This document shows positions 12,879-64,000 of a stretch of DNA of 64,000 nucleotides, one piece after another. This DNA is from Linderina pennispora. Its lineage: Eukaryota; Kickxellomycota; Kickxellomycetes; Kickxellales; Kickxellaceae. A program made the position numbers and the translations under genes. The stretch spans positions 124,001-188,000 of the forward strand of contig NW_024468254.1 of assembly GCF_002104995.1 (NCBI RefSeq), read 5' to 3'. Position 1 is the stretch's first letter. The number at the start of each line of letters is the position of its first letter. Under the pieces are notes generated by a model, which was not told the origin of the DNA, did no database searches, and was given only the letters and a program-made list of their open reading frames with translations.

Positions 12879-12944
12879 CTCAGTTCTTACGATCCTTACA
12901 ACTTTCTGACATTGTGAGTCTACACTTAGAATAAATACTTCATC

Positions 12945-13490
12945 CTTGAGCTCAATCGTTCTACGTAAACTGTTTCTGATTAATGAAGTAGCCCGGCGAT
13001 TATACTGATTTATGCCTGCCAACTAGGAACCCTCAGCCAACCCATCATGAAATTCGTGATGCCTGCAAGCACACCATGTTTGGCAAATGATACATTAGCA
13101 CTATACACCAGGCTATGTTTACGTTTCTTGATGATGCAGAGAGCGAATACCATCGACTCCCGTATATAAACAGCGATGTGGCTGGTGGTATCGGTGCCCA
13201 TTGTCTCAATCTGCCGCTTTTCACCTACCATTCTACCAACACAATTCTGCTAGAAGAAACGGCCAGCAAAAAGGCAAGTTCTGCCGGCAAAATCCTGCAA
13301 TCGGCAAGTGGATGATATGATGGGTAATAGACAGCCACTGATGCCATCACCAACATTGCTAGATATAGAGCTTCACACCATGACCGTTAAAGCCAGTCGT
13401 GGCCGCAAAAGTAGGTTCCTGCTCTCCTCCCAGAAAAAAACTTTGCTTCTACGTTGTTCATACAAACACATTATTCGCACTGTCTAACAA
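12945..13490. other. Intergenic between the left arm and the FunK1-like gene
   Basis: About 0.55 kb. It contains CCCGTATATAAACAGC (near 13159-13174) as a possible TATA element. No gene is supported. Confidence 0.4.
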
Positions 13491-16085
13491 ATGGGCTTCA
13501 AATATCCTCACTACCTAGAGAACGACGGCAAGTCAGCCAGACCGAGCAAGCGTAGGCGCACAATCGAGAGCTTTGCAACTGCTACAAACGAAGAGACACC
13601 AGATGCAGGCACTGACGGTAACTTGCTGGACAACCTTCCTCCTCCTATCGGGTACGAAGCATTTTTCCATGGTTGGGCCAAACAACTTCACATGAGGCCC
13701 GACCGTAAGCTGATAGAGGGTGGCGTTATTGTCGCAGTTGCTGTTGTTCGTAAGGCCATCAGTGACTACCAAGACCTCAAAACGGCTCGTACCACGGACT
13801 TGCCGGTATCTGTGGAAGATAACTCTAAAAGCATAGCACTCCTTGAGCGCGAGTATGAGCGTTTCGACAAGAGGCGTGAGATGGTCATGGCTCGCTTGAA
13901 TGATAACCCCGACGCCGAGAACCTGTGGAAGGAGATTGACAAACTCGACCTCAAGTGCGAGTCTGTTCAGAAAGCGATCGATAGAAAAATAGAGTCTGCC
14001 AACCAGCGTGCACAACAATTACAGGAGGATGCGCAGAAAGCTGTTGACGAGTCTATCGAACGAGTCAATACGCTGTTGGCAATCAGCGGTGGAGAACTAG
14101 CCAGCATCACGGCAGCCAGTAAGTGCACTTCTGTAAAGAAACCTGATAGCTCAACAAACTGTTTCGCTAACATGTACTTATTCCTTCAAGTAGACAACCT
14201 TGTGCTAGGGCCGATCGAGCCTCTCATCGCACCCCAGAACACTCGCCCTGCACTCCGTATTGTCAACTCGTGCCTTGCGCTTCCCCCAATCAAGCATGAC
14301 GCTGAGAGACGACAGAACGCGATCCGTCTCAACAACCATCTCCTTGAGACCCGTCCGCACCTGCACACACGTCGTTTTGCACTGCCGCATGCCCCGATTA
14401 ACCAGGGATTCCACCCGCGCATCCTGCTGAACGAGCACTGTATTGGCAAGTTCTTTGAAAACGAGATTTTCAGCCGCGTGCTCGATCTCTTCCCGGAGGT
14501 TGTCCATGGTGCCTCGATTGAGTTTGTACCCGGTAATCCAGCCTGCCATGCTGACTACTTTGCATACCTCAAAGCCAACGTCAAGGGTAGAATGCTACAC
14601 ACCTATATTGCACTTGAGTTCAAGATGCCGTACCGCACTCGGCCACAGACGACTGGCATACGGTCAGAGATGGGCGATTCAAGGGTCCGCGTGGATGGGG
14701 AGTCAGGAAAGGCACTCGAAGACGCTGGATTCGCTAGCATTGCGCATGGCGCGAAGCTGATCCACCAGACATATTGCTATGCGCGGGATGGCAGGCTGAC
14801 GTGTCCGCAGGTTCCTGACCCACGGCTGATCAACCGAAAGTTCGGGTACTGCTCGACGTTCAACGAGTCATGGGTCTGCGAGTATGTCGATAGTGACATG
14901 GAGTCTCAGGGCTCGCTCACCGAGACTCAGCACACTGCTGTGTCGACTGGATCCAGTGGCAGTATTGTCGATAATCAGACTACTGGCAGTCCAACCCAGG
15001 CCACACCTGCGTGCTACATCAATGTGTCGTCATGCTTCCATGCCAACAACAACTCACCTCACATCGCTGTGGTGATTGTCGGTATGCTCAGTGACGCTGT
15101 CAGAGACATGCAAGACAACCCCGACCAGTACATGGAGATGGACCAGGCTGTCGACAAGACCAACCCATTGATGTCGCCTCCCAGTCATGTATCCAGGACT
15201 CCATATAAGAGTGGCACCATGGTGTACAGCATTCCAGGCAAGGTGCATAGAAGGTCGCTGGGCCGACGCAGCATACCTGGTAATGGATCTACCACCAAGG
15301 GACAGGATATGGCTGTCCTGGCTATACAGTGCAAGCAGCAGTCGACGTTCGCCTTCCAGCCTCTCTTCCTGCACACGGATGTATGGTGTGGGAATGCGGT
15401 TGTGAATCAGCATGCGCCGGAGCAGACTGACATGGCGACTGACTCAACGCTGCAAGCGAGGCAATCCACAGACGATGGCTGTGTGACCCAGGGAATCTGG
15501 GCATGTGTCGTGGAGAACTGGCGCCCGCTGACAGGGCATTTCACACTGGGACGGCAGCTCGGATACGGCCGCAGCGGGTATGTTCACGAAGCCTGGCACA
15601 ACAATAGGCATGTCGCGCTAAAGTTGTGCCCTCTGCAGACGGAGGGCAGGATTCTGGAAGAGATCGTCCAGGAGACTAGGGTGTATGACTATCTGAGGGA
15701 CCTGCAAGGCACCGAGCTGCCAACCCTGTACAACTACGGTGTATTGGAGATCAATGGCGTGCTGTACTTGGCACTGGAACTCGAGTTCCTGCAGGATGCG
15801 CTACAAGCCAACACCATGTCGGTATATCGCGAGCATTTGGTTGCAGCACTACCCTTGTCAGTCAAGAGTGATATCCTGAACAGCCTGGCTAAGCTTCATG
15901 AGCGCGGCGTGGTGCACAACGACCCGCGGGTATATAATGTACTGCTGGTGCAGGACCTAGCGCGACCAGACAGGTACAAGCCCAAGCTGCTGGATCTGGC
16001 GATGAGTTACATAGATGCGACAGATGAGGCGATCCAAGAGGACAAAAGGCTCTGGACAGCTGTGCTCAATGGTGAAGCCATCTGA
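13491..16085 (+). CDS. FunK1/Crinkler-like protein: nuclease-like region plus kinase domain
   Basis: The open frame has 864 codons. A 72- or 75-nt in-frame intron probably interrupts it (donor GTAAGT at 14119, branch GCTAAC, acceptor at 14190 or 14193), giving about 840 residues. Unspliced numbering follows. The N-terminus has a basic NLS-like patch (KRRR, 20-23) and a coiled coil at about 105-195. The middle region, about 310-430, contains HADYF (D355) and ALEFK (E376, K378), a pattern like PD-(D/E)XK nucleases. Residues about 683-850 form a kinase domain: GYGRSGYV glycine loop, VALK (K711), VVHND (H809, D811), N816 and LLDLA (D835) in place of DFG. The C-terminal lobe is short, as in FunK1 kinases. 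REase-kinase fusions are known in Crinkler-type effectors; assignment to them is inference. It lies next to the inverted repeat. Confidence 0.7.
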   Translation: MGFKYPHYLENDGKSARPSKRRRTIESFATATNEETPDAGTDGNLLDNLPPPIGYEAFFHGWAKQLHMRPDRKLIEGGVIVAVAVVRKAISDYQDLKTARTTDLPVSVEDNSKSIALLEREYERFDKRREMVMARLNDNPDAENLWKEIDKLDLKCESVQKAIDRKIESANQRAQQLQEDAQKAVDESIERVNTLLAISGGELASITAASKCTSVKKPDSSTNCFANMYLFLQVDNLVLGPIEPLIAPQNTRPALRIVNSCLALPPIKHDAERRQNAIRLNNHLLETRPHLHTRRFALPHAPINQGFHPRILLNEHCIGKFFENEIFSRVLDLFPEVVHGASIEFVPGNPACHADYFAYLKANVKGRMLHTYIALEFKMPYRTRPQTTGIRSEMGDSRVRVDGESGKALEDAGFASIAHGAKLIHQTYCYARDGRLTCPQVPDPRLINRKFGYCSTFNESWVCEYVDSDMESQGSLTETQHTAVSTGSSGSIVDNQTTGSPTQATPACYINVSSCFHANNNSPHIAVVIVGMLSDAVRDMQDNPDQYMEMDQAVDKTNPLMSPPSHVSRTPYKSGTMVYSIPGKVHRRSLGRRSIPGNGSTTKGQDMAVLAIQCKQQSTFAFQPLFLHTDVWCGNAVVNQHAPEQTDMATDSTLQARQSTDDGCVTQGIWACVVENWRPLTGHFTLGRQLGYGRSGYVHEAWHNNRHVALKLCPLQTEGRILEEIVQETRVYDYLRDLQGTELPTLYNYGVLEINGVLYLALELEFLQDALQANTMSVYREHLVAALPLSVKSDILNSLAKLHERGVVHNDPRVYNVLLVQDLARPDRYKPKLLDLAMSYIDATDEAIQEDKRLWTAVLNGEAI

Positions 16086-25959: not shown

Positions 25960-26210
25960 CTCTGCAATACACATTTCATATTCTGATAAACAATCCCAAT
26001 AGTTGAAAGAGAGTATGATTTCTTAATGCAATGGTTCATGGTGTTGCTTAAACCTAAGAGCGTGTGTCTTCAAGATAATTACCTGTAGCAATACTGGGGA
26101 GTTCACATAATAGTATTACTATACATATAGCGCTTGAGCTTAAAGATGAAGTATTTATTCTAAGTGTAGACTCACAATGTCAGAAAGTTGTAAGGATCGT
26201 AAGAACTGAG

Positions 26211-26714
26211 TTAGCCAGAGATGAAGTTGTTGGTGTTGGAGTGGACAGCATCATTTGCCTGGTTGGCGTTGATGTTGTTGGTATACAGAGTATTCTCACT
26301 AAAGTTAGCGCGGTTTGAAGCACGATCGAACTCGCTGTTGAACGAGCTCAGGAATGGGAATCCCCAGCCCCAGCCGCCATATCCACCATATCTGCCATAT
26401 CCACCGTATCCACCGTATCCACCGTATCCCCACTGGCGCTTGCGGAAGCTGTTGAAGGTGTTGGTGTTGGAATGAACAGCATCATTTACCTGGTTTGCGC
26501 TGAGGCTGTTGGTATACAGAGTGTTCTCGTTGAAGTTGGCACGGTTGGAGGCACTGTCAAACTCGGTATTAAGCACGCTCACAAATGGAAAGCCCCAGCC
26601 CCAACCGTACTGGCGACGAGCGATCTCGGGCATAGGAGTAGGTACAGCATTGGCTGGCGGTGCAAAGGCAGCCAGGGAGACGAGAGCAAGAATCGGGGTG
26701 CAAGTGTTGACCAT
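26211..26714 (-). CDS. Secreted two-module peptide precursor with dibasic sites, right copy
   Basis: Encodes the same 167-residue protein as 12375-12878: signal peptide, RR-Q and KR-Q Kex2-type sites, and two WGWGFPF/ENTLYTN/NDAVHSNTN modules. It is the parental copy if the right arm is the source of the duplication. Its promoter and TATA box are also duplicated, so both copies may be expressed alike. Confidence 0.82.
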   Translation of the reverse strand: MVNTCTPILALVSLAAFAPPANAVPTPMPEIARRQYGWGWGFPFVSVLNTEFDSASNRANFNENTLYTNSLSANQVNDAVHSNTNTFNSFRKRQWGYGGYGGYGGYGRYGGYGGWGWGFPFLSSFNSEFDRASNRANFSENTLYTNNINANQANDAVHSNTNNFISG

Positions 26715-26820
26715 GGTGGACAGAAGATGGGCTGCAATATTGGTGTTGAAGCAAGTGGATGCTGGTTCTGATACTGATGCTGATACTGAGTAAGTGTAGG
26801 AAGCTGGATGTTGGCTGCTG

Positions 26821-26828
26821 CTTTTATA
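26821..26828 (-). promoter_or_regulatory. TATA box of the secreted-peptide gene, right copy
   Basis: TATAAAAG on the minus strand, 107 bp upstream of the ATG at 26714; the mirror of 12261-12268. Confidence 0.6.
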
Positions 26829-27496
26829 ATGTGGAGCAAGGCGGCTTCATCACTGCTGCCTGATAGATCGCAAGATGTATATGAACGCCAAGAGCAAATA
26901 TGACAAGTAGCAATCACTTGATTGGGCAGCTGGGGCATGGCATGTATTGAAAGAGATGCTGAGTACGCGAGGGAGCTAAAGAACACAAATATATCGGGCA
27001 AGGATGTACCTAGCGATAGGTATTATCTTAGCACAATATGCCTCTGCTCCAACATTGTGCGCCTAGGTATGGAGTACAGTGTAGCCGTAAGGATCTATTC
27101 TTCCAGGATTGGCATTGTTGGAGTCCTGGTAGTTATGAGGAAGATGAGCTAAAGCAACAGTGCTGCGTACCAGGCCTACTTTTGTGAGTGTGCAGGCAAG
27201 GAATGCATGCCAGCGCAGAGATATTGCGGGCTAGTTCATTACCCAGAACAATTCCATTGGGATCACACATGTCATCGGAATAAGACTAGTTTGGTGTGTG
27301 GCAGTAATGTGGTATTTGTCACATTGTGGATAGCAGTTTTTGTTATTACACCTCGGGGCATAGCTCTCCAGCAGCCCAGATGTCGTCGAAAATTGGCTGT
27401 TGCACAGGCAATTTGGTTCATGTATGGCTTTCTGAGACCGCTACCAACAAGCGTGGTGAACTAGTTGGATCGGCAGATCCGGTGCTGATGTCACGT
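26829..27496. other. Non-coding stretch inside the right repeat arm
   Basis: Mirror of the non-coding part of the left arm, between the secreted-peptide promoter and tRNA-Val. No gene is supported. Confidence 0.4.
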
Positions 27497-27570
27497 GATT
27501 TCTTGGTGTAGTTGGTTATCACGTCTGCCTAACACGCAGACGGTCGCCGGTTCGAACCCGGCAGAAATCA
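27497..27570 (+). tRNA. tRNA-Val (anticodon AAC), copy 2
   Basis: Same 74-nt cloverleaf as copy 1: acceptor GATTTCT/AGAAATC, anticodon loop CTAACAC, T arm GCCGG-TTCGAAC-CCGGC. TTTT at 27574-27577 is a probable Pol III terminator. This is the presumed parental copy. Confidence 0.96.
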
Positions 27571-27813
27571 TCCTTTTGCTTCCTGCCCCTCTGCCGCTCC
27601 TTTTATGCCTGCGCGCGTTGGGATGTGCCGTGCCCACCCACTATGGGGGGGTCCTGCTTTTCGTTTTTGGCATGAAAGCACACCCTCCTCATCTGACCGT
27701 ATGCAATATACCTCTTGCCCTTTTTGCCTCGTGCAGCGTATGTCAAACATATGTATTTCGAGAAAAAAGAATCACGTATGTGCTTCGTAGCGCAACTACT
27801 GCCAACAAACACC

Positions 27814-28371
27814 CTACTGCGACAGAGTGCCCGTCTGCTCGTACGTCTTCAGGTCGGCATCGACGTTGACGTCGTTCTGCGGCGCGACCGGGGCCTTGGG
27901 CGCAACAAACTCCTTGGTCGTGACATCAGCCTTGGCAGCCTACATCAAAAGGGCTTGCGTGAGCAATGGCCTGCTCTCGCTAGATATCCTGTGCTTGTCA
28001 CCAAGCCTTATAATCTGGAATCCTTACCTTGCTGGGCTTGTAGTCGCGGATCTCCTTGAGGTACAGGTCCTGGAGGAAGTCTACATGCAGATTCTTCTAT
28101 ATCAGCTGTCATGTTTGACCGATTACGGCTGCTCTGCCTGCCGATCAATGTTATATGTACACGTACCCTTCTTCGAGGCGCTGGAGACAGAGAAAGCGCG
28201 GACAGCAGCACGGCTGGCGGTCTACATGGAGCAAAATAGGGGTTGAGAGTGCCTCCCAACAATTCGGTTTAGTGATTGTGCTGAATCCTGTACGGTTCCC
28301 TTCTGTCTGAGAAATAAGCTGCAATGCGCAAGCGTGCGTACCTGGTTGCGGATGGCGGCAAGGGCGAACAT
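27814..28371 (-). CDS. ATP14: Mitochondrial ATP synthase subunit H (Atp14-like), four exons
   Basis: A small peripheral-stalk subunit of F1Fo-ATP synthase. Exons 28371-28342, 28221-28167, 28080-28028 and 27939-27814 give 87 residues with consistent phases and GT..AG borders. The N-terminus (MFALAAIRNQ, then TASRAAVRAFSVSSASKK) is a mitochondrial presequence. The diagnostic core is DFLQDLYLKEIRDYKPSK, matching the QDLYLREL-type motif of Atp14. The C-terminal part is Ala/Pro/Asp-rich. All exons are short, so no long ORF covers the gene. The inverted-repeat border (28040) falls inside exon 3. No other gene in the window encodes this subunit; the left arm has only its 3' end. Confidence 0.8.
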
Positions 28372-49736: not shown

Positions 49737-50870
49737 ATGAGTTCCGGCATGGTGGCGTCGTCTGAATCGGTACTGCGGATTCTGGGCATGCAAGAGCGTG
49801 AGCATTGCGGGTACTGCCGGACTGACTCGGGGTCGCGGTTTTTCGCCCTGCGCGCACGCACTCTGTCATGCAGCGATTACCAGCTGCTGGTGGATCGCGG
49901 CTGGCGGCGGTCCGGCTCGCTCCTGTACCTGACCGATATGAGCGACTCGTGCTGCCCGTACTACACAATCCGCACGCGTGCACTGGAGTTCCAGCCCAGT
50001 AGTTCGGATAGGAAATTAGCACGGCGCTGGCGCAATTACCTTGGTGTGCCCGTAGCCGACAATCCGGACCGGATGATGTTCCGTGGCGGGCAGTTGCACT
50101 CACTGGATGTGCGACTGGGGCCGGCCGAGTTCAGCGAAGAGAAATACTGCGTGTTTGAGAAATACCAGACCCAGGTGCATCACGAGACGGATACGACGCG
50201 GGCGGGGTTCCGCCGGTTCCTGTGCAACTCGCCACTGGAAAACAAGGAGCGGATGGGGTCGTTCCACCAGTGCTACTATATTGACGGGCGGCTGATGGGT
50301 GTGGGCGTGCTGGATGTGCTGCCAAAGTGCATCTCGTCGGTGTATTTCTTCTACGACCCGGCGTTTGCGCACCTGTCGCCGGGCACGTACAGTGCGATGC
50401 GCGAGCTCATGCTGGCCAAGCAAATGCACATGCATATGCCGACGCTCCAGTACTACTATATGGGCTATTTTATCCCGTCGTGTCCAAAGATGGCATACAA
50501 GAAACACTGGCGGCCAGCAGAGCTCCTAGATGTGACCACATTCAAGTGGTTCCCCATGGAAGACTGTCTGAGGCGCATCGCCCAGCATCCCGTGTTTTGC
50601 AGCTTTGATCCAGAGATCGAGCACCGCGGACTGGTGCGCGATTCACAGGAGGACCGACTGCAGGTGGCGCCGGTGTTTGGCCCAGAGCTGGTCAAGGATC
50701 CGGAGGAAGCGCTTGCGTTCACAGTGCTGGTGGATGTGGGCAGCAAAAAATATGCGCCAGTACTGGCAAGCCGGCTAGCCAACGTGTATGAGTGGGCTAG
50801 GCTTGAGTTGCTGCGTGCTGTTGCGGGTCTCAGTAACGACCTGGCACACCAGGCACTGATTCTCCTGTAA
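49737..50870 (+). CDS. ATE1: Arginyl-tRNA--protein transferase
   Basis: Transfers arginine from Arg-tRNA to N-terminal Asp, Glu or oxidised Cys, making N-degrons. 377 residues, one exon, shorter than yeast Ate1 (about 500). The N-terminal cysteine motif HCGYCRTDSGSRFFALRART and the second pair SCCPYYTIRTRALEFQPS are both present. The GNAT-like C-terminal domain has FHQCYYIDGRLMGVGVLDVL, SSVYFFYDPAFAHLSPGTYS, YYMGYFIPSCPKMAYKKHWR and PAELLDVTTFKWF. Start ATG at 49737 is the first in frame and gives the usual spacing to CGYC. Confidence 0.95.
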   Translation: MSSGMVASSESVLRILGMQEREHCGYCRTDSGSRFFALRARTLSCSDYQLLVDRGWRRSGSLLYLTDMSDSCCPYYTIRTRALEFQPSSSDRKLARRWRNYLGVPVADNPDRMMFRGGQLHSLDVRLGPAEFSEEKYCVFEKYQTQVHHETDTTRAGFRRFLCNSPLENKERMGSFHQCYYIDGRLMGVGVLDVLPKCISSVYFFYDPAFAHLSPGTYSAMRELMLAKQMHMHMPTLQYYYMGYFIPSCPKMAYKKHWRPAELLDVTTFKWFPMEDCLRRIAQHPVFCSFDPEIEHRGLVRDSQEDRLQVAPVFGPELVKDPEEALAFTVLVDVGSKKYAPVLASRLANVYEWARLELLRAVAGLSNDLAHQALILL

Positions 50871-51142
50871 CAAAAATATCAAGCCATTTTTGACGTGTTT
50901 GTATAAGGTAAAAGAATGAACCTGAGGAAACAATTTGCATCTCTGTCGCATACGGCCGTTTATCTGTGCGTTCTAGGGGGCAGGCTTCGTCCTCTCGTGG
51001 CTAATCTCGCCAGAACTTGTACATTACATCTTCATTTTGTTGCACCCATTACAATGCTAGCATGGGCCATGTTTTTGACTCTTCCGCCATATTCTCCCTA
51101 AATATGATCGTTCCAATCAGCCTGATTTTTTATTTTCCATCC

Positions 51143-52381
51143 ATGGGGGTCAAGGGTCTCACGCCACTGCTCGCGCGCTTTGCGCCTGCCAGCATTTCAA
51201 CAATTTCGCCATGTACACTGTCTGGCTGGACATTGGCAGTCGACACGAGCATTTTCATCCAGCGCTTCTTCCGCAGCCCTTCGCCGTCACCGCAATCACG
51301 GCACATCCAGGGCATCTACGACCTGGCCACATATATGCATTCGCTAGATATCACCCCTATATTTATATTTGATGGTGCCACACGCGCGCGCGGCAAAGAG
51401 CGCGAGCTCCAGAAGCGCCGCCAGGACCGCATCCGCCTGCAGCAGGAGTACGAGCGCGCGCAGGCACGGCAGCAGCGCATCCGCACCATGCAGGAAATCG
51501 GCATTGCGGTTCTGGAGGACATGCCGGGCGAAATCTCGGCGGAATCATGGGAGAAATCACGGGCGGTGGAGTGGCTACAAGAGGGGCTTGCAAGGGAGAT
51601 AATGGCTGGACATACGGTGGATGCACGCTTGGATGTGCTGGAGCAGGAGGCTGCCAAAACAATGCTGTTCCAGATGGGCGACTCGGCAGTTTCTGCCGAT
51701 GATCTGCCCGAGCACAATGCGCTGGAGCTGCTGGCTCAGCTTTCGAGCGAACGGCTCGATGTGCTGGCACGGCGTGCCGAGCCGCTAACAAGACAGCACG
51801 TTGATGAGTGCCGGCAGCTGGTGCGGGCGCTCGGCTATGCTGCATATACGGTGGAGGACGCGGAGAGCGAGAGCATGTGTGCGGCGCTGGTAAAGGGCGG
51901 CGTGGCCGACGCTGTGTGTACTGAGGACCTGGACGTGCTGGCGTTTGGTGGCCGCCTGGTGCGCAGCTTCTATACGCCTGGCCAGGACGTGCTAGTGATG
52001 GATGTGCAGCAGGCAATTGCCGGGCTGGGACTCAAAGATATGCACCAGTTCCGCGACCTATGTATTCTGTGTGGCACGGATTTTGCGTCGACACTGGAGC
52101 GTGTCGGCCCGGTCACGGCGCTGAAGCTCATTAAAAAGTTCGGCACCATCGAGCAGATCCTGGAGTCGGGCACCTACCGACAGCGCGACGGCTTTGATTA
52201 CCAGCTGGCGCGGGAGATCTTTGGGAGAAATGTCAAGCTGCCGTTCAGCACCAGGGAGGAGGTCCGTCCGCGGTCGGCAGACCGAGCCGAGCTGGACCGC
52301 CTGCAGAGGCTGTTTGGCGTGCGCCTGCTGGCGGGCCAGGCCGCTGGGCTGGATCCGTTTGCGGCTGGTGCACTGTTCTAG
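51143..52381 (+). CDS. FEN1/XPG-family 5' nuclease with enlarged arch region
   Basis: 412 residues from the ATG at 51143 (MGVKGLTPLLARF). The Rad2/XPG catalytic acids can be placed: D34 (LAVDTSIFIQRF), D77 (PIFIFDGATRARGKERE), E241 and E243 (EDAESESMCAALVKGG), the Asp pair of CTEDLDVLAFG, and Asp of ILCGTDFASTLERVGP. D77 to E241 spans 164 residues against 72 for the equivalent pair in human FEN1, so a helical insertion of roughly 90 residues lies between the N and I regions. There is no clear PCNA-binding box at the C-terminus. It may act on mitochondrial or specialised flaps, but the substrate is unknown. Upstream in-frame ATGs (from 51017) lead to hydrophobic, non-family sequence and were rejected. 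Confidence 0.82.
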   Translation: MGVKGLTPLLARFAPASISTISPCTLSGWTLAVDTSIFIQRFFRSPSPSPQSRHIQGIYDLATYMHSLDITPIFIFDGATRARGKERELQKRRQDRIRLQQEYERAQARQQRIRTMQEIGIAVLEDMPGEISAESWEKSRAVEWLQEGLAREIMAGHTVDARLDVLEQEAAKTMLFQMGDSAVSADDLPEHNALELLAQLSSERLDVLARRAEPLTRQHVDECRQLVRALGYAAYTVEDAESESMCAALVKGGVADAVCTEDLDVLAFGGRLVRSFYTPGQDVLVMDVQQAIAGLGLKDMHQFRDLCILCGTDFASTLERVGPVTALKLIKKFGTIEQILESGTYRQRDGFDYQLAREIFGRNVKLPFSTREEVRPRSADRAELDRLQRLFGVRLLAGQAAGLDPFAAGALF

Positions 52382-52745: not shown

Positions 52746-54276
52746 ATGGCCCCATCTGCCCCCTCAATTAACAGCGTCGGCAGTTCGCGCATGGCGACTC
52801 CTCGCCCGAGCAGTTACCGGCACAAGTCCGAGAAGCGCGGCATGACCTACAACATCATGCTTGTTGGTAAGTAACGCAAACCTTATTGCGGGCGAGCGCA
52901 CGTTTGGCCGGATCCCAACTGCCTTGCTACTTTTCCCGTCGTTTTCCAATCTCTCGGAAAGGAACAAACAGCACAACATGCCTGGCTGTTTTGAAAAACG
53001 CCTCTTGTGTATTTTTCGCATCAAGAAAGGGGGTGAAATGTTTTACTGTATTGTTCCTGGGCCTCTCCCGACCTGTTGTTTATGTTTATGTTTATGTTTT
53101 TCTGTCTGCTTTGTAGGCCAGTCTGGTCTGGGCAGACGCACGTTCCTCAACACGCTGTGCGAGCGCGAGGTTGTGCCTCCCCCCGAGGCGCCGAACCCCG
53201 AGACCGCGCACATTGCCGACCCGATGAAGTTTGACACATACGAGGTGACGCTGGAGGAGGAGGGCACGCGCATCAGCCTGACAGTGATTGACACGCCGGG
53301 GTTCGGCGATGGGCTGGACAACACCGGGTGCTTCAAGCAGCTGCAGGACTACATTGAGGCGCAATTCGATGAGGTTCTGGTGGAGGAGAGCCGGATCAAG
53401 CGCAACCGCCGGTACCGCGACCACCGGATCCACGCGCTGATCTATTTCATTGCGCCGACGGGCCACTCGCTGCGCGAGTTGGACATCGAGCTGATGCGCC
53501 GGCTGGGCGAGTATGTGAACATTCTGCCGGTGATCGGCCGGGCGGACACGCTGACGGTGGAGGAGCTGGCGGTGTTCAAGCAGAACATCACGCGGGACCT
53601 GGAGTACTACAAGCTGCCGGTGTATAATTTCTGCTGGGATGACTCGGACACGGAGGCCCTGGAGGAGAACCGCGAGATCATGGGCCTGATGCCGTTTTCT
53701 GTGGTGACGTGCGACGAGGTCCTGGATAACGAGTACGGATCGGTGCGTGTGCGCCGCTATCCGTGGGGCACCATCGAGATTGACGACGAATCGCAGTGCG
53801 ATTTTGCGCTGCTGCGCTACATCCTGCTGAACTCGCACATTGCCGATATGATCAACTTCACCGAGGACGTGCTGTACGAGAACTACCGCACGCGCAAGCT
53901 CGAGGTTGGCGGCTTTGGCGAGGCCGAGGACGACGAAGAGCAGGATGACGAGCAGGACGCCGCTGCAGGCAAGAGCCAAGAGTAAGTCCACACATTCCAC
54001 CTTCCCCCTTTGATATCCTCTCCACAGCCCTCCGTCATTTTTTGTTTCCTCCAGCTCTCCCCCTCCCCTGCCTGCGGCAGATCAGGGCAGGCAAGTCTCA
54101 ATTCTGTTCAGTTTTAACTTTGTCTGGAACAAAACCTTCAAAAATTGCATGCACACACCCACACCACATCACATGCGACCATGATGCCACTAACTTGCGT
54201 GCGCGAGCATAGGAAGGCGAACCCCGAAAAGGCCGAGTTTGCCGAGACCCGCACTGACGAGGGATTCGACAGCTAA
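52746..54276 (+). CDS. Septin, CDC11-like, three exons
   Basis: GTP-binding filament protein of the septin ring. Exons 52746-52866, 53117-53981 and 54213-54276 give 349 residues. The polybasic region (SYRHKSEKRGMTYNIMLVG) crosses junction 1 into the P-loop GQSGLGRRTFLN, where Arg stands for the usual P-loop Lys, as in Cdc11. The switch motif DTPGFGDGLDN, the G4-like GRADTLT and the septin-unique element RKYPWG-like RRYPWGTIEIDDESQCDF are all present. There is no C-terminal coiled coil; the tail is acidic. Intron 2 has branch CACTAAC, and the last exon adds only 21 codons (EKANPEKAEFAETRTDEGFD). If intron 2 is retained, the protein ends one codon later with TAA. Confidence 0.9.
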
Positions 54277-54399: not shown

Positions 54400-55197
54400 T
54401 CAAAGCAGATACGGAATCACCGCCTTGCGGTTCCTCGGGTAGTCCTCGAACCGGCCCTGGTACCACCTGTGCACATGCACTGCGCGGGCAAACAGATTTG
54501 CCATGGTGTTGAGTGCAAACGTGAGGACCGCCGGCGACCCAGACGCCAATGCCAGGCCCAGCCACTCGACAGCCTCAGACAGGTAGTGCGGACACGACAC
54601 CCACCTGAACAGCCCGCCCGTGGGCACCGCATACCCGGTAGTTTTGCCGCTGCGCCTAAGCTCCATCAGCACCCCGTCATGGTAGATGTTGCCGTACATA
54701 CCGGCCGCGAACAAGCCCAGGCCTGCAAGACACCTTACCGGATGGCCCATTAGATAGTTGCCCAGGTACTGCTCCGGATGCACCACCGAGAAGTGGCGTC
54801 CGGCAAGATACCCGTTGATTGAATTGAAAATGACTGCCTGGACAACCGTGTCCAGCGGCAGTGGCTTGCGCGACGGTGCGCGCAGCGGGTAGACGATCGC
54901 CCGGTTCACGTAGTGCATGACCCAGAGCAGCACAAATAAATTGCCGGCAGCGGACGTCTGGACGGGCTGCGGCGCAAATACCCCAAGCATGGTCGGCGAC
55001 AGGTACGCGGCGATAAGCACGACTGGCGATACAATCTCCATGACAAACCACCCCCATTTGCCATGCACTGTGTATTTGGGCGGCTCCTTTATCTGGCTGC
55101 CGTACGGCGACCCCGCGAGCAGCGTGCCGACGAATATCACGATTGCTGAGACCTGGAAAAAGAACAGAATCTTGCCATACACGTCGAGCTCGTCCAT
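54400..55197 (-). CDS. Steroid 5-alpha-reductase family protein (SRD5A1-like)
   Basis: 265 residues, several transmembrane helices; an ER membrane reductase using NADPH. The C-terminal 3-oxo-5-alpha-steroid 4-dehydrogenase domain is typical: LLWVMHYVNRAIVYPLRAPS, GVLMELRRSGKTTGYAVPTG, GLFRWVSCPHYLSEAVEWLG and the terminal HVHRWYQGRFEDYPRNRKAV. Length and layout are those of SRD5A1/2 rather than the longer polyprenol reductase Dfg10 or Tsc13. The native fungal substrate is not known. It converges on the septin gene with 123 bp between stops. Confidence 0.9.
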   Translation of the reverse strand: MDELDVYGKILFFFQVSAIVIFVGTLLAGSPYGSQIKEPPKYTVHGKWGWFVMEIVSPVVLIAAYLSPTMLGVFAPQPVQTSAAGNLFVLLWVMHYVNRAIVYPLRAPSRKPLPLDTVVQAVIFNSINGYLAGRHFSVVHPEQYLGNYLMGHPVRCLAGLGLFAAGMYGNIYHDGVLMELRRSGKTTGYAVPTGGLFRWVSCPHYLSEAVEWLGLALASGSPAVLTFALNTMANLFARAVHVHRWYQGRFEDYPRNRKAVIPYLL

Positions 55198-55796: not shown

Positions 55797-56187
55797 CTAG
55801 TCCAAGACCTCGTCCGTCAGCGCGCTCGTCATGTATTCTGCAAACAGTCTGCTCCACACATGAAACTCAGGATCCGAGTCCATTGCTAGCACTCCGGCCA
55901 TATAACGTCATAGCTCTTGTCACTGCGCATACCGACCGCCACCCTAGGAACGCTGCTATATGCCTCAGGACATTCGGTCTCGTAATAATCTCGTGTAATT
56001 GCCTTGCTTGCAGACGCATATCCGACCTAACAGCGCCTTGCGGCATACACATTACCCGCTCACTGTCCTCTCTACTGTGCACTACCCCGTAGAACCGTCC
56101 TTCCTCTGCTTTGACTTTTAACGCAGATACGTCTGCTATCTCGGACTCATGCAGATGGACCCTTGGATGGGTTGGGCTGTGCTCCAT
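55797..56187 (-). pseudogene. Array member 1, frameshifted
   Basis: From the ATG at 56187 the frame runs MEHSPTHPRVHLHESEIADV, then FYGVVHS (the family's GILHF site) and HIAAFLG (the VFLG site), and stops at 55867. The rest of a family-like C-terminus continues in another frame: YMAGVLAMDSDPEF, then LFAEYMTSALTDEVLD ending with TAG at 55797. It matches the LCAEYTARVV ending of member 2. A single frameshift near 55900-55920 would explain this; a sequencing error is the alternative. No signal peptide. Confidence 0.6.
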
Positions 56188-56400
56188 TATTGCATCTTGG
56201 TAATACGCTATGTAATAGGGAGGCAGACAGGATACAGGGGAGCGAATGATGGGGAAACTGCATTTTACATTCACTCAGGAAAGATAAAGGTGGCCTCAAC
56301 AGTGCCTTGCTAGAATTCTGATATCCACATGTCCTCTGTAGGAGTTGTTTGCAGTTGTCCATTTAAACAAGCTTTTGCTAGCAACTCATAGCGTACGATA

Positions 56401-56883
56401 TTACCGGTCATTAGAAGGAATGCTTCTCATAAACCCATTCCAGTATTTCGGATTCTGCAGCTTCTTCACTACCCTAGCTGTATATTCTGCGCATAGCTCT
56501 GCAAACTTCATATCAGCTCCCAACCCGCCCAGTTCGCTGCAGACCTCGCCAACACACTCCCTGAGCTCTTCGCAACCAAATGGACCGAGCGATATTCCCT
56601 TCACATCAGTAATAAACGTGGCCTCAAGAAGAGTATCCATACCCACGGTCTTGGTTATACACGTATTATCCTCTGCACAGTAATCCGGGAATGATACTGT
56701 CTTGGTGCATGTGTCGCAGAAATGCGATATCGCATATCCCCAGGTCCTATCTTCCTTGAATCGAAGGACATACACTGACATGCAGTGTCTGTACTGATCG
56801 AGCGACTGGATATTGAATTCTGTCACAATTTCGCTATCTAATAACTCCTCAATATGAGGAGGAAGGAATGTTACCTGAGGCAT
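56401..56883 (-). CDS. Array member 2, 160 residues
   Basis: Start ATG at 56883 (MPQVTFLPPHIEELLDSEIV). Family template: SVYVLRF strand, GYAISHF in place of GILHF, ISLGPF in place of VFLGKF, and the C-terminal LCAEYTARVVKKLQ helix. Rich in cysteine (about 9) between the two blocks. It lacks the first His and the HWC motif of members 5, 6, 8 and 10. Function unknown. Intronless, no signal peptide or membrane helix. Confidence 0.65.
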   Translation of the reverse strand: MPQVTFLPPHIEELLDSEIVTEFNIQSLDQYRHCMSVYVLRFKEDRTWGYAISHFCDTCTKTVSFPDYCAEDNTCITKTVGMDTLLEATFITDVKGISLGPFGCEELRECVGEVCSELGGLGADMKFAELCAEYTARVVKKLQNPKYWNGFMRSIPSNDR

Positions 56884-57100
56884 TTGGCTAGACAGAATAT
56901 TATTGAATGATGACTGGGATGAGAGAAGGAGGCATCCCGCAGGCACATCAGCTGGACATATCCCCAAAAGCCATCAATGGCATGGTTTGGAGTATGATTT
57001 ACTAAGCTTGTTGCTACATGTATATCGAAGCATTGAGTTGCTATCCGAAAGTCAGTTTTATTTCTTAATGCGCATCTAGTTTTCATACCAAGCTAACATC

Positions 57101-57483
57101 CTACAAAATATTGGAGATAGTAGGCTCTGGCTCACTAAACAATGCAGACAGCAGCTTGTTCGTGAGCCTACGCACCATGTCTTTCGCAAACAAGTAGTTG
57201 AGGAAAATAGGCAAAATCCGCCTTTTCGCTTTGACGGCGGCATGTCACTCATGCGTAATATACTCTCCAGGGCAAACTTGTCGAAGTAGATCGACTGAAT
57301 TGGTCACACAGCAAGACTTATAACATGATGGCCAGCGTATACCACAGCAACTCTAAGATCCCACTTCGAGAGGTAGTTGGGAATGAGGCGAACTGCTCCA
57401 CGCCCGTTGCTCCCAAAATGGACAATCCAATATTCAAGACGCGATCCGATGGCATACAGAAGGACAAATGCGTTGTAAGGCAT
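57101..57483 (-). pseudogene. Array member 3, decayed copy with stop and frameshift
   Basis: From the ATG at 57483 a 59-codon ORF (MPYNAFVLLYAIGSRLEYW, then IVHFGSNGRGAVRLIP) aligns with the family N-terminus and ends in TGA at 57304. The same frame continues with PIQSIYFDKFALESILRM, the family's middle helix. A shift near 57215-57235 then leads into LNYLFAKDMVRRLTNKLL, the C-terminal helix, ending with TAG at 57101. The ORF is too short to appear in most gene calls. Confidence 0.65.
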
Positions 57484-57811
57484 AGCAGTGTACTATGAAT
57501 GTATTCGGTCATGTCTTATGATGGCATATGGGATAGTTTGATGGTGAAACATAGTCAATTATTGTCATTTGGTGGAGATTTAGGAAGAAATGGCCAACAG
57601 CAGCAGTGGAGCAAGTATCAGCTGGGCCATGATGGCAGTCATGGCCATATGTTTCTAGCTGACATCTCCGTCTAAACAAATCCAGAAAATCGCGTTTAAA
57701 CATGGGTCGCGTTTATTAGCTCATATTTGGCGGCAAGCATGATCAAAGAAGCGATGAGATGGCACATGTAGCGCGCGCAGATCGCTTTACAAATATGCTG
57801 GCGGGTTGAAC

Positions 57812-58279
57812 TTATTGAAAAATGCATTTGCACATAGACTTTTCCTCATGCACCGAGGATTCCTCGCTCTCGGTGTCACCGTTGCAAAGAATATCTAGCA
57901 TGGCCGCTGCAAAAATCTCCTCCAAGTCTGCAAGTTTCTGCGACCAGGCACCTTTCAGCATCTTCCGAAGTGCAGCATCTCGGGCTTCGCCCATCTGCTG
58001 CTCTGAAAACTGGCCAGCATGGACGGCTCGAACATAGCTGAGTCCAGGATCGTTGAGGAATGTATCCAACGCCTCATATGACACATGGGGCATGAGCGGC
58101 CAACGGGATTCACCGAGACGCCAGACAACGCTGGTGCCGCTTTCATGCAGGTGCAGCACCCCAAACATAATACGGTTAAGTAACTCGACCTTGATTGCAT
58201 AAACACCGCCTCCATTGTAGGGGCGAGGAACAGAGCCGCCATTCCAGATGGTGAAGCTGTGGCTATCATCAGCAAGCAT
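57812..58279 (-). CDS. Array member 4, 155 residues
   Basis: Start ATG at 58279 (MLADDSHSFTIWNGG). Template sites: VYAIKVELLN, FGVLHLHESG (the GILHF site), YEALDTFL, VRAVHAGQF (VFLGKF site), and a helical C-terminus (LEEIFAAAMLDIL). Both catalytic-type His positions and the Cys are absent. Acidic tail (TESEESSVHEEK). A TATA box lies 86-93 bp upstream. An upstream open stretch to 58303 lacks an ATG. Confidence 0.7.
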   Translation of the reverse strand: MLADDSHSFTIWNGGSVPRPYNGGGVYAIKVELLNRIMFGVLHLHESGTSVVWRLGESRWPLMPHVSYEALDTFLNDPGLSYVRAVHAGQFSEQQMGEARDAALRKMLKGAWSQKLADLEEIFAAAMLDILCNGDTESEESSVHEEKSMCKCIFQ

Positions 58280-58364
58280 AGTAAAAGGATAGTTGAATCG
58301 CAATAAACTGTTCCTGAAGCAAAAAGGGGGTTAGAGAACGTTAGAATTTGGAGAAAGTTGCCAC

Positions 58365-58909: not shown

Positions 58910-59383
58910 CTATAGGGGGCGCTTGGTGTCGGTAAGTTTTGCACCACACAAGGTTTTCCCGACTGTATGTCCGCATAATTGCTTGGTCGCCTCGATGGTA
59001 AACTGTCCACACCAGTGACACACGCACCGTAGCGGGTTTATCAGGGCCATTTTAGAAAGTATATCAATAGCGACACTTACGAGGCTATCGATCTCAAGAG
59101 CAGTATACTTCCCTAGAAGAACCCCGGCACAGCCCTTGTACTGGTTGTTAGCCATGGCTTCAAGCAACGGCTTTTTGGAGACGGTGGATTCTCTGTTCAG
59201 CGGTTGCGACTCGGGGTGGTACAGGGTGCCTGTCCCTGTTCTATCAAAATGGAGTATACCATAGTGCGGTTCGTCACCAATCTGGAATATAACAGCATAA
59301 GTGTATAGCGAGTTTGTCGACAGGACAAGGAAGTCGGCAGTGATGCTGTAAAGCTGGATTCCAGTTGAGGAAATTAAAAACAT
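58910..59383 (-). CDS. Array member 5, 157 residues, His-His-Cys type
   Basis: Start ATG at 59383. Core: YTYAVIFQIGDEP, then HYGILHF (H40), TLYHP (H56), LLEAMANN, AGVLLGKY, and CHWCGQFT (C125) followed by a helix EATKQLCGH. The spacing H40-x15-H56-x68-C125 is shared exactly with members 6, 8 and 10. The motif order resembles the LRAT/PLAAT thiol enzymes (His-His-Cys); a zinc site is the alternative. No signal peptide, no membrane helix, no intron. A TATATAG element lies about 100 bp upstream. Confidence 0.75.
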   Translation of the reverse strand: MFLISSTGIQLYSITADFLVLSTNSLYTYAVIFQIGDEPHYGILHFDRTGTGTLYHPESQPLNRESTVSKKPLLEAMANNQYKGCAGVLLGKYTALEIDSLVSVAIDILSKMALINPLRCVCHWCGQFTIEATKQLCGHTVGKTLCGAKLTDTKRPL

Positions 59384-59791
59384 GGTGGGCTTTTGATAGT
59401 TCAACTACTAGAAACGAAAAGCAGGGCAGCAAGAATAACAGGAGCAGAAAATGCTAGAAAACATATCTAGGCCAGCTTGGCTATATACCAGCCACTGGAT
59501 GAATCCACTAGTTATTGAGTTGCCAACTGATGGCATCAGCTGTGTGGGTCTCGATAAGAATGTCCAGAGAGCATTGCGTTCCGCTACATACCATTTTTAG
59601 TAGTGATAATGCCTCCTTCATGAAAAGGGTTCTCAAAGCTGATGACTTCGCCTGACAGGAATTCCACTGGTCCAAGTACGGGCTAAAGCACAGATATTAC
59701 GGATGCCTGGATACCGAAGTTATAATCCTCTAAGCATGTAGAGCATCTGCTGTGCATACCAAATACTGTTATTATTAAACTAATATTCCAG
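59384..59791. other. Spacer between array members 5 and 6
   Basis: About 0.4 kb. Apart from the TATA-like element at 59481 I see no gene. Confidence 0.4.
59481..59487 (-). promoter_or_regulatory. TATA-like element of array member 5
   Basis: TATATAG on the minus strand, about 98-104 bp upstream of the ATG at 59383. Confidence 0.5.
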
Positions 59792-60268
59792 CTATGGATA
59801 AAACGTACTGTCAACTAGGTTTGCAGCTGAGAGAGTATGCTCAACTGCATGTCCACACAAATGCTTTACCAGCTCGACTGTAAACCTCCCACACCAATGA
59901 TAGAGCATATTCTCTGGATTAATCGGGGTCGTATACGCGAGACTGCGTATAACTATCAACGCCAGAGACTCCACTTTTGCTGTTGGAAACTTGCCCAAAA
60001 ACACCGAAACATTGGTCCTGTACTGCGTACGCAGCATTATTTCAAGCAGCGAGTCCCGTGAGATGATCGCATCGTGGGTAAGAGGCTGCGAGCATGGGTG
60101 GTATAGAATCTCAGGTGCTGTGTCGCCAAAGTGCAATATCCCCATGTGGTTCTCCTTCCCGAGCAGAAACCGTACGGCATAGGCGTTATACGAGCCTACT
60201 AATGATACCAACAACTCAGGCGTAAAGGTAGTAAGGCTGGCGCAGGTGCTGTTGTTTCGAATCGCCAT
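59792..60268 (-). CDS. Array member 6, 158 residues, His-His-Cys type
   Basis: Start ATG at 60268 (MAIRNNSTCASLTTF). Core: YNAYAVRFLLGKEN, HMGILHF (H41), ILYHPCSQPLT (H57), SLLEIML, VSVFLGKF, YHWCGRFT (C126), then VELVKHLCGHAVEHT. It is the closest relative of member 5; both keep SQPL after YHP and LCGH after HWC, so they look like a recent tandem duplicate pair. Same H-x15-H-x68-C spacing. TATAAA about 105 bp upstream. Confidence 0.77.
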   Translation of the reverse strand: MAIRNNSTCASLTTFTPELLVSLVGSYNAYAVRFLLGKENHMGILHFGDTAPEILYHPCSQPLTHDAIISRDSLLEIMLRTQYRTNVSVFLGKFPTAKVESLALIVIRSLAYTTPINPENMLYHWCGRFTVELVKHLCGHAVEHTLSAANLVDSTFYP

Positions 60269-60724
60269 TGACTACATACAAACTTCGAGTGAGTAGCAAA
60301 ATAGGGAAGTTGGCAGAGACAAGTGGCATGGCGCGGTTACTGTAGTATCTAGTCCAGGTGTCGTGCCAGTTTATATTTGCAACAGCTAGTAATCTTTGTG
60401 CGGGTTTGCGTGATGCCATCAGCTCAGTAAAGGGCATACCAGACAACTCCATACATTGTGCATAGATGCAAGTGTCTTGGAAATCGCCATCTGTGTACAA
60501 TCAAGCACTAAAAAGCTCTGGGAGTGAGAGCTAGAACTCAGCTGAGGTGCTGGTCGACATGAGGGGCGTGCTTGTACCCAAACGAATACCTGGATCATGG
60601 GAGTTCTATACTCATCTAGTTACAGCTATTTTATTGAAAGCGTAATGCACTGCTTACCTTGTAGGCAATAAAACAGGAAAGAACTTTGCCGTTGCCTATA
60701 CAGCCGGGCGAATACCTAGTTGAG
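60269..60724. other. Spacer between array members 6 and 7
   Basis: About 0.46 kb, holding the member 6 promoter. A 94-codon minus-strand frame overlaps that promoter and has no family motif, so I do not call it. Confidence 0.4.
60370..60375 (-). promoter_or_regulatory. TATA box of array member 6
   Basis: TATAAA on the minus strand, 102-107 bp upstream of the ATG at 60268. Confidence 0.5.
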
Positions 60725-61159
60725 TCAGTTGAATACCCAGTCAAAGTTGTCAGACCTGTTCTCGCCAGCAAGCCAGATAGTGACATTTTGCGCGTACCAG
60801 CGATTTATTTGCTGCAGAGTTAGATTATCATTTTCGTTTGCTATTTGAGTCAGCCAGGTAGCGGTAGTCGTCCCAAGAGCGTGTTGGCTTGTCTCGCCAA
60901 TGTAGATTATCCAGTGAATTGTCTCTTCAGCCGTGTTTAGCATTTCAGAGAGGTGCCAGAGTGATATGATGGGCATACCATCAGTCTCATTAGGTTGTGC
61001 GGCCCAGATATTTCCCGCACATTCATGGAAGCTCAGGATCCCAAACAAGTTCTGGCCGAGTGCTCTGAACTTCACAACAAATGTAGCATGGGTGCGAGCG
61101 TATCTGGCTGCCAGGGCTGGTGTGAATCTGATGTGCTCCGAGTGTATGTGGTTCTGCAT
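60725..61159 (-). CDS. Array member 7, 144 residues, divergent
   Basis: Start ATG at 61159 (MQNHIHSEHIRFTPA). Template sites: TFVVKFRALG, FGILSFHECAG (GILHF site), WHLSEMLN, WIIYIGE (VFLG site), and NRWYAQNVTIWLAG where members 5/6 have CHWCGQFT. His and Cys of the His-His-Cys type are replaced, so if the family is enzymatic this would be a pseudoenzyme. No signal peptide. Confidence 0.68.
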   Translation of the reverse strand: MQNHIHSEHIRFTPALAARYARTHATFVVKFRALGQNLFGILSFHECAGNIWAAQPNETDGMPIISLWHLSEMLNTAEETIHWIIYIGETSQHALGTTTATWLTQIANENDNLTLQQINRWYAQNVTIWLAGENRSDNFDWVFN

Positions 61160-61790
61160 TTGATTAATGGGACATGGAGAGATTAAGGAGCGTATATGAA
61201 TAACCAGGTTCGAAGTAAAAAACGGAGGAAAAGAGAATGGCCCTGTGTGGATACCTTGCTTGCTGAAAGCACTGCTCTCGGGAAAACCCTTTCAGCTGGC
61301 ATGGTTGGAACATCCACTAAACAAAGGGGATGTCCCTAAAAGGGCTATTTGGTGCAAACTCGGGTGGCGTAGTTAGACAAGCCTGGCTGTCACTGGGCAT
61401 TGCCACCAGCAGGCACAGAGGGACCTTCCAATACTGCCGAAAAAGGGATCGCTTGGGAATTTTCGCAAAAAACAGTTTAGCCACATTGAGTGTGAGCGGA
61501 GCGCACCCGTGCTACTCGGGGCAGCGATTTTCCCAGCCAGTGGCATCTGTGTGGCGATGAAGAACTGAGTCAGCAGCAAACTCTACTTCTCAACGAGTGT
61601 ACCACTTGGTATGTACAGCGATTCCAGACGCATCTCTAGGCTGGCAGTGTAGTGGGCAGATGAGAAAGTTTAATGGGTGCATTGGTGCGGTGGGAGTGCT
61701 ACAATAAGTACCGATATTGGCGCCTGAGTCTGCAACAAGCAAACATGTAAATGAAATGTTATATATCCACCCATCCCAAGAAAGAAATAG
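61160..61790. other. Spacer between array members 7 and 8
   Basis: About 0.63 kb, the longest gap in the array. I found no ORF or remnant that fits the family template, though a strongly decayed copy cannot be excluded. Confidence 0.35.
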
Positions 61791-62258
61791 CTACAACCAC
61801 ATGTTTTTCGGCTGTGCTGAGCCACTAAAGAACGACCGAGAATCGGCTAACCTGAATAGTATGTAGACCATGCATTTCGTGTATGGCATGCACCAGTGAG
61901 GGAGCTGACCAGGAGGTGCTTCGAACGGTCGCGCAGACAGGATCTTGGTTGCATGGCGGCACGCTACTTCGATATCCGCTTCATGGACAATACCGAGAAA
62001 ATATCCCTTGAATTCTGCCGTAGGGTGCTGTAGTAGCAACTCAGAGAACCACGCCCGGGTGATTTGTGACCGCTCTGTGGCTATTTGGCTACGCACATGG
62101 TACAAGGCACCTCCGTACACGTTATTAAAGTGGACTAGCCCTGCGTGTTCCTGGCCGTCCAGAACGAACTTCACAGCATAGATCTGGAAAGTGCCTTTCT
62201 TGCACCTCACATTGAACTCCGTGAAACTTGTAAATGGGGGCTCCTCAGAAACGCTCAT
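61791..62258 (-). CDS. Array member 8, 155 residues, His-His-Cys type
   Basis: Start ATG at 62258 (MSVSEEPPFTSFTEF). Core: QIYAVKFVLDGQE, HAGLVHF (H38), ALYHVRSQ (H54), WFSELLL, GYFLGIV, LPHWCMPYT (C123). Identical H-x15-H-x68-C spacing to members 5, 6 and 10. A TATAAT element lies 85-90 bp upstream (62343-62348, minus strand). Intronless, no signal peptide. Confidence 0.76.
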   Translation of the reverse strand: MSVSEEPPFTSFTEFNVRCKKGTFQIYAVKFVLDGQEHAGLVHFNNVYGGALYHVRSQIATERSQITRAWFSELLLQHPTAEFKGYFLGIVHEADIEVACRHATKILSARPFEAPPGQLPHWCMPYTKCMVYILFRLADSRSFFSGSAQPKNMWL

Positions 62259-62342
62259 AGCAATAAAAGCACCAAAATATCACAAGAAATAATGAGGAAA
62301 GGCATCCAAAGTTGGCAGAAGAAGCGTTCTACACACCAGTAC

Positions 62343-62348
62343 ATTATA
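62343..62348 (-). promoter_or_regulatory. TATA-like element of array member 8
   Basis: TATAAT on the minus strand, 85-90 bp upstream of the ATG at 62258. Confidence 0.4.
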
Positions 62349-62490
62349 GCTACTTTGATTCCCACATCACTCAGGCTCAAAAATTGCGAGCGGTGAGTGG
62401 TGAACAAGGGCTTTTCTGGGAATCTCATAAAACAACCACACAAGATAGATATCACAGTGCCCGCACAGTATACCGAGTGTAGGTCCAGCA

Positions 62491-62832
62491 TCAATGGAAA
62501 TCGGCCCCTCTCATTATCATCCTTATGTGCATATATGTATCTAGAATTTGGCGACTGGCAAGCTCTACGGCATCAATATTAGTATCAGCATCAAACCACT
62601 CAAGAAATATGGCCTGGTTAAGAGAGTGCTGTGGGTGGTCAGGTATTTCCTGGAAAAGAGTTTTGGATACAAACGAGCTGGAGGTAATGGCTTGGGATAT
62701 TGGGTAATATACTTGTCCGTGGTCCAGCCCATGGAATACGAGGATGGCACAGTGGATGCAGCTATCCAAGATGTACTTGAATGCAAAAACATAGGGTAGG
62801 GTTCGGTAGTTTAATACCAGTTCTTTCGTCAT
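62491..62832 (-). CDS. Array member 9, C-terminally truncated, 113 residues
   Basis: Start taken at ATG 62832 (MTKELVLNYRTLPYVFAF). Template sites: FAFKYILD, HCAILVFHG (first His kept), QVYYPISQ (second His changed to Tyr), LFQEIPD and QAIFLEWF. It stops at 62491, before the HWC region, with no sign of it downstream in the same frame. The open frame extends upstream past 62883 without another ATG. Either a truncated gene or a pseudogene. Confidence 0.55.
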   Translation of the reverse strand: MTKELVLNYRTLPYVFAFKYILDSCIHCAILVFHGLDHGQVYYPISQAITSSSFVSKTLFQEIPDHPQHSLNQAIFLEWFDADTNIDAVELASRQILDTYMHIRMIMRGADFH

Positions 62833-63053
62833 AGTGATTCCATTGTCAATTGAGTCCGGCTCGCTTGAGGACTCTACATCCACTGTACTATCAGAAAGTA
62901 TGTCGTGCAGTACTGTTGAGTTGCTCGCCGTATATTTGGTCAGCGCATAAAGCGGAATGAGTAAGGATGAGCTTAGGTAGGAGATTCAATAGAGACATAT
63001 GTCTGAAGTTAAAAGAAGTGAGTCCGGTTCATTATATCCTCGAGGTAGTACGC

Positions 63054-63524
63054 CTAGTTGCTGCGATAAAGCCTACCATCAAACGACTCTCCTAGCAGGG
63101 AGCGGCCTGTCCAGAGTTCAATCAGAACCCACGAGAGAATGCCTGTGTATGTCTGGCACCAATGCGAACACGTGCCCGACGGAACACTGCCTAAACCACC
63201 TGCCATACGTTTCAGCGTGTACTTGCTGGCAAGTTCTATTTCTGCACTGCTAAACCTTCCTAAATACACAACAGAATGCTGGCATGGCGGCCTATTGTGA
63301 AGCATGTCAAACAATCTCATCTTTTCGATAACAGACGTTTCGGTAGCTTCCTGGGTGAGCGGGTGGAATACAATACCGCCGACAACGCTGTTAAAATGAA
63401 GGGTGCCGAAATGAGTGATGCCGTTGGCTCTGTACCGGATGGCATATGCCTGATGTGTGGTGCATTTTTCTAGTGCCAGACCGCTCGATATGGTCGGTTG
63501 CTGGAAAGATGTGCATGAATGCAT
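63054..63524 (-). CDS. Array member 10, 156 residues, His-His-Cys type
   Basis: Start ATG at 63524 (MHSCTSFQQPTISSG). Core: QAYAIRYRANGIT, HFGTLHF (H38), IVFHPLTQEAT (H54), LFDMLHN, SVVYLGRF, SHWCQTYT (C123), then GILSWVLIELW. Spacing is the same as in members 5, 6 and 8, and residue numbers equal those of member 8. A TATACT sequence about 85-90 bp upstream is a weak TATA candidate. The tail continues to ESFDGRLYRSN. Confidence 0.76.
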   Translation of the reverse strand: MHSCTSFQQPTISSGLALEKCTTHQAYAIRYRANGITHFGTLHFNSVVGGIVFHPLTQEATETSVIEKMRLFDMLHNRPPCQHSVVYLGRFSSAEIELASKYTLKRMAGGLGSVPSGTCSHWCQTYTGILSWVLIELWTGRSLLGESFDGRLYRSN

Positions 63525-63639: not shown

Positions 63640-64000
63640 TCATGAACCATGCTCGCCAAATATGTCATGCTCAGTAGCAATACCAGCCAGGAGCCGCGTT
63701 GTGCACCTAGTAAATTGCTCGCATCGCAGCGAATCAGATCTAGGCAGGCTTTCACTATAGTTCAAGGCTGTCCAGCGGACTCTTTCAGGCTCACTGGGTT
63801 CAGTGACACCCAGGAAATACGCCTGGTGGCTGCGGTAAACAGGCTTTTCTGCCATGTTGTTGGCCATGCCGGCTTTATAAATGGGTTGCTTCGCTGCCAG
63901 AAGCGCAGCATTTCCACATCTCCTTCGGTTTGTGAGCATTGGTAGGGCAAATGTCGCCATATCCCAAGCTATCCGTGCGGGTGAATGGTGACGAAATATT
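63640..64000 (-). CDS. Array member 11, partial at window end
   Basis: The frame is open to the edge of the window, so its start is not seen. The C-terminal part fits the family: AYFLGVTEP (VFLG site) and LRCEQFTRCTTRLLAG, where CEQF stands at the HWC position and looks even more like the NCEHF box of LRAT/PLAAT enzymes. The upstream part (WDMATFALPMLTNRRRC) is divergent and I cannot place the two His residues. Ends with FGEHGS. Confidence 0.5.
   Translation of the reverse strand, partial: IFRHHSPARIAWDMATFALPMLTNRRRCGNAALLAAKQPIYKAGMANNMAEKPVYRSHQAYFLGVTEPSEPERVRWTALNYSESLPRSDSLRCEQFTRCTTRLLAGIATEHDIFGEHGS

Follow-up and report, generated by a model that had tools for sequence, protein, structure and literature searches.

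The PLAAT/HRASLS proteins (PLAAT2, PLAAT3 and PLAAT4) have a C-terminal membrane tail, and proteins of the DUF6540 family (PF20174) occur in fungi. LRAT and DUF6540 proteins have a Cys-His-His triad according to PMC10318531, and Glu is given as the third catalytic residue of the C92 family in PMC3142127. A tandem array of 11 pieces, all on the minus strand, lies at 55.9-64.0 kb of the window analysed here, a 64,000-nucleotide stretch of Linderina pennispora DNA (contig NW_024468254.1, positions 124,001 to 188,000). With a probability of about 65%, we read this array from a kickxellalean fungus as a divergent permuted NlpC/P60 (papain-like) family of the LRAT/PLAAT type, having a Cys-His-His site and probable acyl hydrolase or transferase activity, with triad-less copies alongside. 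LRAT/PLAAT-like, as judged from the predicted fold and the triad, is the best description of it, as opposed to a demonstrated member of LRAT.

The members are given below. Sites 1/2/3 are the positions of the first His, the second His and the Cys of the putative triad; a dash marks an absent or unaligned residue.

Member 1, 55867..56274, minus strand: sites F/M/-, C-terminal part unaligned.
Member 2, 56401..56967, minus strand: open reading frame, sites G/F/C.
Member 3, 57307..57492, minus strand: fragment, sites E/-/-, second and third unaligned.
Member 4, 57812..58303, minus strand: open reading frame, sites M/R/-, the third a gap.
Member 5, 58910..59404, minus strand: 164 amino acids (aa) from TTG or 157 aa from ATG (codon 8), triad H47/H63/C132, or H40/H56/C125 when counted from that ATG.
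Member 6, 59792..60268, minus strand: 158 aa, triad H41/H57/C126, AlphaFold2 model 2.
Member 7, 60725..61159, minus strand: open reading frame, sites L/A/Y.
Member 8, 61791..62258, minus strand: 155 aa, triad H38/H54/C123.
Member 9, 62491..62883, minus strand: broken, sites H/Y/-.
Member 10, 63054..63524, minus strand: 156 aa, triad H38/H54/C123 (codons at 63411-63413, 63363-63365 and 63156-63158), AlphaFold2 model 1.
Member 11, 63640..63960, minus strand: C-terminal piece that carries CEQF; no His pair seen.

The original prediction was that members 5, 6, 8 and 10 share the pattern H-x15-H-x68-C, and all four do. It took the exact spacing as a sign of a catalytic or metal site, an argument which carries little weight: the four proteins align without a gap across 146 columns (member-10 residues 3-148) at a pairwise identity of 23-41%, and in a gap-free alignment the distance between any two conserved residues is bound to stay constant, which leaves the spacing without value as independent evidence. 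The departure from chance lies in which residues are invariant: H, C or W fill six of the 17 invariant columns (Fisher p 0.0003-0.003, depending on the member). Two of the three local contexts that had been described, H[YMAF]G[ILT][LV]HF and HWC, are present in all four members, and both H121 and C123 (member-10 numbers) are invariant; the third context, [LI].[YF]H[PV], is found only in members 6 and 10 and not in member 5 (TLYH) or member 8 (ALYH). Codon third-position differences exceed those at the first and second positions in five of the six pairs, so the four members look coding; in the remaining pair, member 10 versus 6, the third only equals the first.

The joint keeping of the triad is more telling than its spacing. 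In a wider alignment of ten members, in which members 1, 2, 3, 4, 7 and 9 were added to the four and member 11 was left out, four members have all three residues and none of the other six has more than one. Loss of the spacing in such an alignment had been named by the original prediction as evidence against itself; the sites were mostly lost together rather than shifted. H43, an invariant neighbour of the triad, is kept in four of the six triad-less members. The joint keeping and loss of the triad, together with the survival of H43 without it, suggest a joint function of the three residues and a separate, perhaps structural, role for H43.

The copies without the triad are probably pseudoenzymes or decaying genes. 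Members 2, 4 and 7 stay open despite an incomplete triad, and member 7 may be a pseudoenzyme or a relic. P0005 (EC988_003558), 99 aa long and annotated in a different L. pennispora record, is near-identical to member 4; it lacks the first two triad residues and ends ahead of the Cys site, which hints at a pseudoenzyme copy kept within the species. Member 9 is broken at the putative active site itself, its in-frame stop falling within the HWC motif. The CEQF of member 11, cited earlier in support of the Cys site, is present, but it lies 29 residues past the LG motif, compared with 34 in member 10, and by eye there is no His pair in register, so that it lends the Cys site weak support. The membership of member 2, whose protein matched only itself in its own genome, rests on the alignment and on an 8-sequence profile which itself includes member 2.

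Two AlphaFold2 models were obtained, and are not fully independent because their input alignments overlap. In both, the elements follow one another as in permuted NlpC/P60 proteins, the helix that carries the Cys coming later than the strands with the His; the two His lie on or beside adjacent strands, and the Cys falls within the opening turns of that later helix. The predicted arrangement of His on strand 2, His on strand 3 and Cys at the helix start is also that of LRAT/PLAAT, and the Cys opens the helix in model 2. Among the best 50 rows of the VIA-align search with each model, the top was taken by PLAAT2/3/4, YiiX, TseH, a C92 peptidase and Aichivirus 2A. Structure prediction, which had been suggested as a check, supports the fold in its element order, although the match may not stand clearly above other rows.

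The nucleophile of members 5, 6, 8 and 10 would be the Cys found at the start of the C-terminal helix, with the second-strand His as its base and the third-strand His orienting that base. The most likely reaction, judged by analogy with PLAAT, LRAT, YiiX and TseH, is an acyl transfer in which the Cys would take up the acyl group of a phospholipid or lipid-modified substrate and hand it on to water or to an acceptor. With His as third residue we lean to LRAT-like chemistry, but no more than that, as Glu occurs there in some bacterial LRAT rows. The Tyr that the aligned bacterial LRAT rows have seven before the Cys is absent from the four triad members, so the oxyanion partner, if any, would differ; a candidate is the invariant His, or the invariant Trp, that precedes the Cys. 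The best 19-residue hydrophobicity means in seven members were 0.7-1.5, and no stretch was hydrophobic enough for a membrane segment, so the proteins are likely to be soluble. No signal peptide stood out.

Several results count to some degree against an LRAT/PLAAT-type assignment. In model 1 the helix begins before the Cys, and YopQ, which could not be placed in the superfamily, ties with most model-2 rows of VIA-align; these two points, and the Glu in two of the bacterial LRAT rows, make the main reading slightly less likely and a zinc site slightly more so. For comparison by sequence, an LRAT alignment was made from nine of 26 bacterial matches, chosen for covering the larger part of the profile and including one near-identical pair, and a C92 alignment from eight of 32. 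All nine LRAT rows have Tyr seven before the Cys and Asn one before it, where Linderina members 10, 5, 6 and 8 have S, L, E and P, and W throughout, respectively. At the second-His site the nine rows have His in five, are unaligned in two, and in two have Glu as third residue. In hhalign the 4-sequence alignment (A1) scored 13.3 against LRAT, a value reached by 28 of 150 shuffles, and its reversed form scored higher, at 21.0.

The remaining profile comparisons, which the original prediction had proposed, were mixed. The A1-LRAT alignment covered 82 columns, as many as in none of the 28 score-reaching shuffles, and matched the His pair, but set HWC on a later LRAT Cys (NWC) and not on the nucleophile. 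Against C92 the A1 score was 12.7, reached by 51 of 150 shuffles. A 9-sequence alignment (A3, without members 1, 3 and 11) did better against LRAT: its score was reached by 7 of 300 and 2 of 200 shuffles, and both its His fell on the LRAT His pair, as they also did in 2 of 300 shuffles, with the Cys outside the local alignment. With a 6-row subset the local alignment was a different one (score 14.5), again with HWC on NWC. When nine members were scanned against all of Pfam there was no match to PF04970 (LRAT), in a search where HMMER filters drop most matches above about 0.1, and none to PF05708, PF20174 or PF05903, the PPPDE profile. In the 26.2 Mb genome PF04970 gave 0 matches, the control being positive in 1 of 14, and PF20174 gave none, as did its control. 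With hhalign weak and the Tyr and Asn missing from all four members, membership of LRAT/PLAAT by sequence is not established. Three members had one Pfam match each, all weak (E 0.05-0.15), and these were set aside as unrelated. All three matches of A1 to solved structures were to ribosomal protein S8 (E 0.8-1.1) and were taken as chance. Foldseek alone returned no match for the models at E <= 0.001. The original prediction was a good first guess from a real observation, with an argument weaker than stated.

Of the other explanations, the one that survives best keeps the fold and triad but assigns a protein substrate, making the array proteins peptidases, deubiquitinase/deSUMOylase-like enzymes (PPPDE/DeSI) or deamidases. 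We consider it unlikely, but permuted members with protein-directed activity do exist, namely PPPDE/C97 (PMC10318531), and the lack of a predicted membrane segment suits it. The third-residue place in PPPDE1 is reported in PMC3142127 to be Phe, where the triad members of the array have His. No PPPDE structure appeared among the 50 VIA-align rows listed per model; there was no DUF6540 structure among them either, and neither absence was counted as evidence.

A zinc site of His3-Cys type, built from H38, H54, H121 and C123 (member-10 numbers) and holding the fold without catalysis, seems to us improbable. The invariance of H121 and C123 in all four members would fit such a site, as would the loss of the three sites mostly together, which a metal site would also show. 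However, the models have Cys-His proteins of a single superfamily as their structural neighbours, the model-2 Cys has the helix-first position of a nucleophile, and H43, an odd number of residues past H38 on the same strand, should face away and yet outlives the triad. Least probable of all is that the whole array is decaying or non-catalytic and the four triads are remnants of common descent: at least members 1, 3, 9 and 11 are truncated or broken, members 2, 4 and 7 lack a full triad and no relative was found outside the species, but four members at 23-41% identity still keep the triad, full length and, in five of six pairs, the third-position excess.

A search of 5.8 billion proteins with the 4-sequence profile gave three matches (E <= 1), all from the array's own contig, and the 8-sequence profile gave three (E <= 10), two from the contig and P0005. 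This search, which depends on shared 5-residue words and can therefore overlook distant relatives, found no relative outside L. pennispora. Member 6 is contained within the partial NCBI protein DL89DRAFT_283569 of L. pennispora, and its nearest paralogue is member 5 (41-43% identity). Searches of the genome itself returned only array members and two weak strays, both set aside: C212 (E 0.05, in a frame with several stops) and C113 (E 0.2). No report of the array was found in the literature searched, whose coverage leaves out most subscription papers.

The preferred reading, a divergent LRAT/PLAAT-like family, may be taken further, although we regard the extension as doubtful. Permuted NlpC/P60 enzymes would have diverged past sequence recognition in one fungal lineage and expanded into live and retained dead copies, with another oxyanion partner (HWC, no Tyr). 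The mixture of live and dead copies and the fast change suggest a role in conflict (self/non-self or antiviral), in which the dead copies might serve as decoys for, or regulators of, the live ones.

The array is flanked by two genes.

54400-55197: 3-oxo-5-alpha-steroid 4-dehydrogenase-domain gene (PF02544), on one side of the array.
L008:56-1606, just past the window end: NTF2-domain gene (PF02136), on the other side, adjoining member 11.

Housekeeping genes nearby on the plus strand encode an arginyl-tRNA-protein transferase (49737-50870), an XPG-type nuclease (51017-52381) and a septin (52861-53985). Elsewhere in the window is a perfect inverted repeat of 1926 nucleotides (100% identity; arms 11042-12967 and 26122-28047, with 13.2 kb between them). 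Its arms share one 167-aa open reading frame (12375-12878, plus strand; 26211-26714, minus strand; 504/504 nucleotides identical), and a frame between the arms (13491-16085) has a weak protein-kinase match just under the Pfam cut-off.

If the preferred reading is true, the array would extend the permuted NlpC/P60 lipid enzymes by a branch in fungi, one missed by Pfam and the profile searches used, and would show how far a Cys-His-His site can be retained while the remaining sequence changes. Four triad copies and the triad-less copies in one locus make a compact natural set for probing the role of the active site. Compared with the PLAAT proteins and LRAT (PF04970), the array has HWC where they have NC, lacks the Tyr seven before the Cys and shows no C-terminal membrane segment; its second His is 16 positions past the first, compared with 12 in the bacterial LRAT protein L031. 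Aichivirus 2A, an H-NC protein which we take to belong to the H-NC/permuted NlpC group, is part of a viral polyprotein, unlike the array genes. TseH (6v98) of Vibrio cholerae is a permuted NlpC/P60 secretion-system effector that is injected, whereas the array is chromosomal and fungal. DUF6540, papain-like and with a Cys-His-His triad (PMC10318531), has both in common with the reading of the array given here, though its profile matched none of the members scanned. In the YaeF/YiiX-like permuted NlpC/P60 proteins (Peptidase_C92) the third residue is the Glu given in PMC3142127, and in all four triad members of the array it is His.
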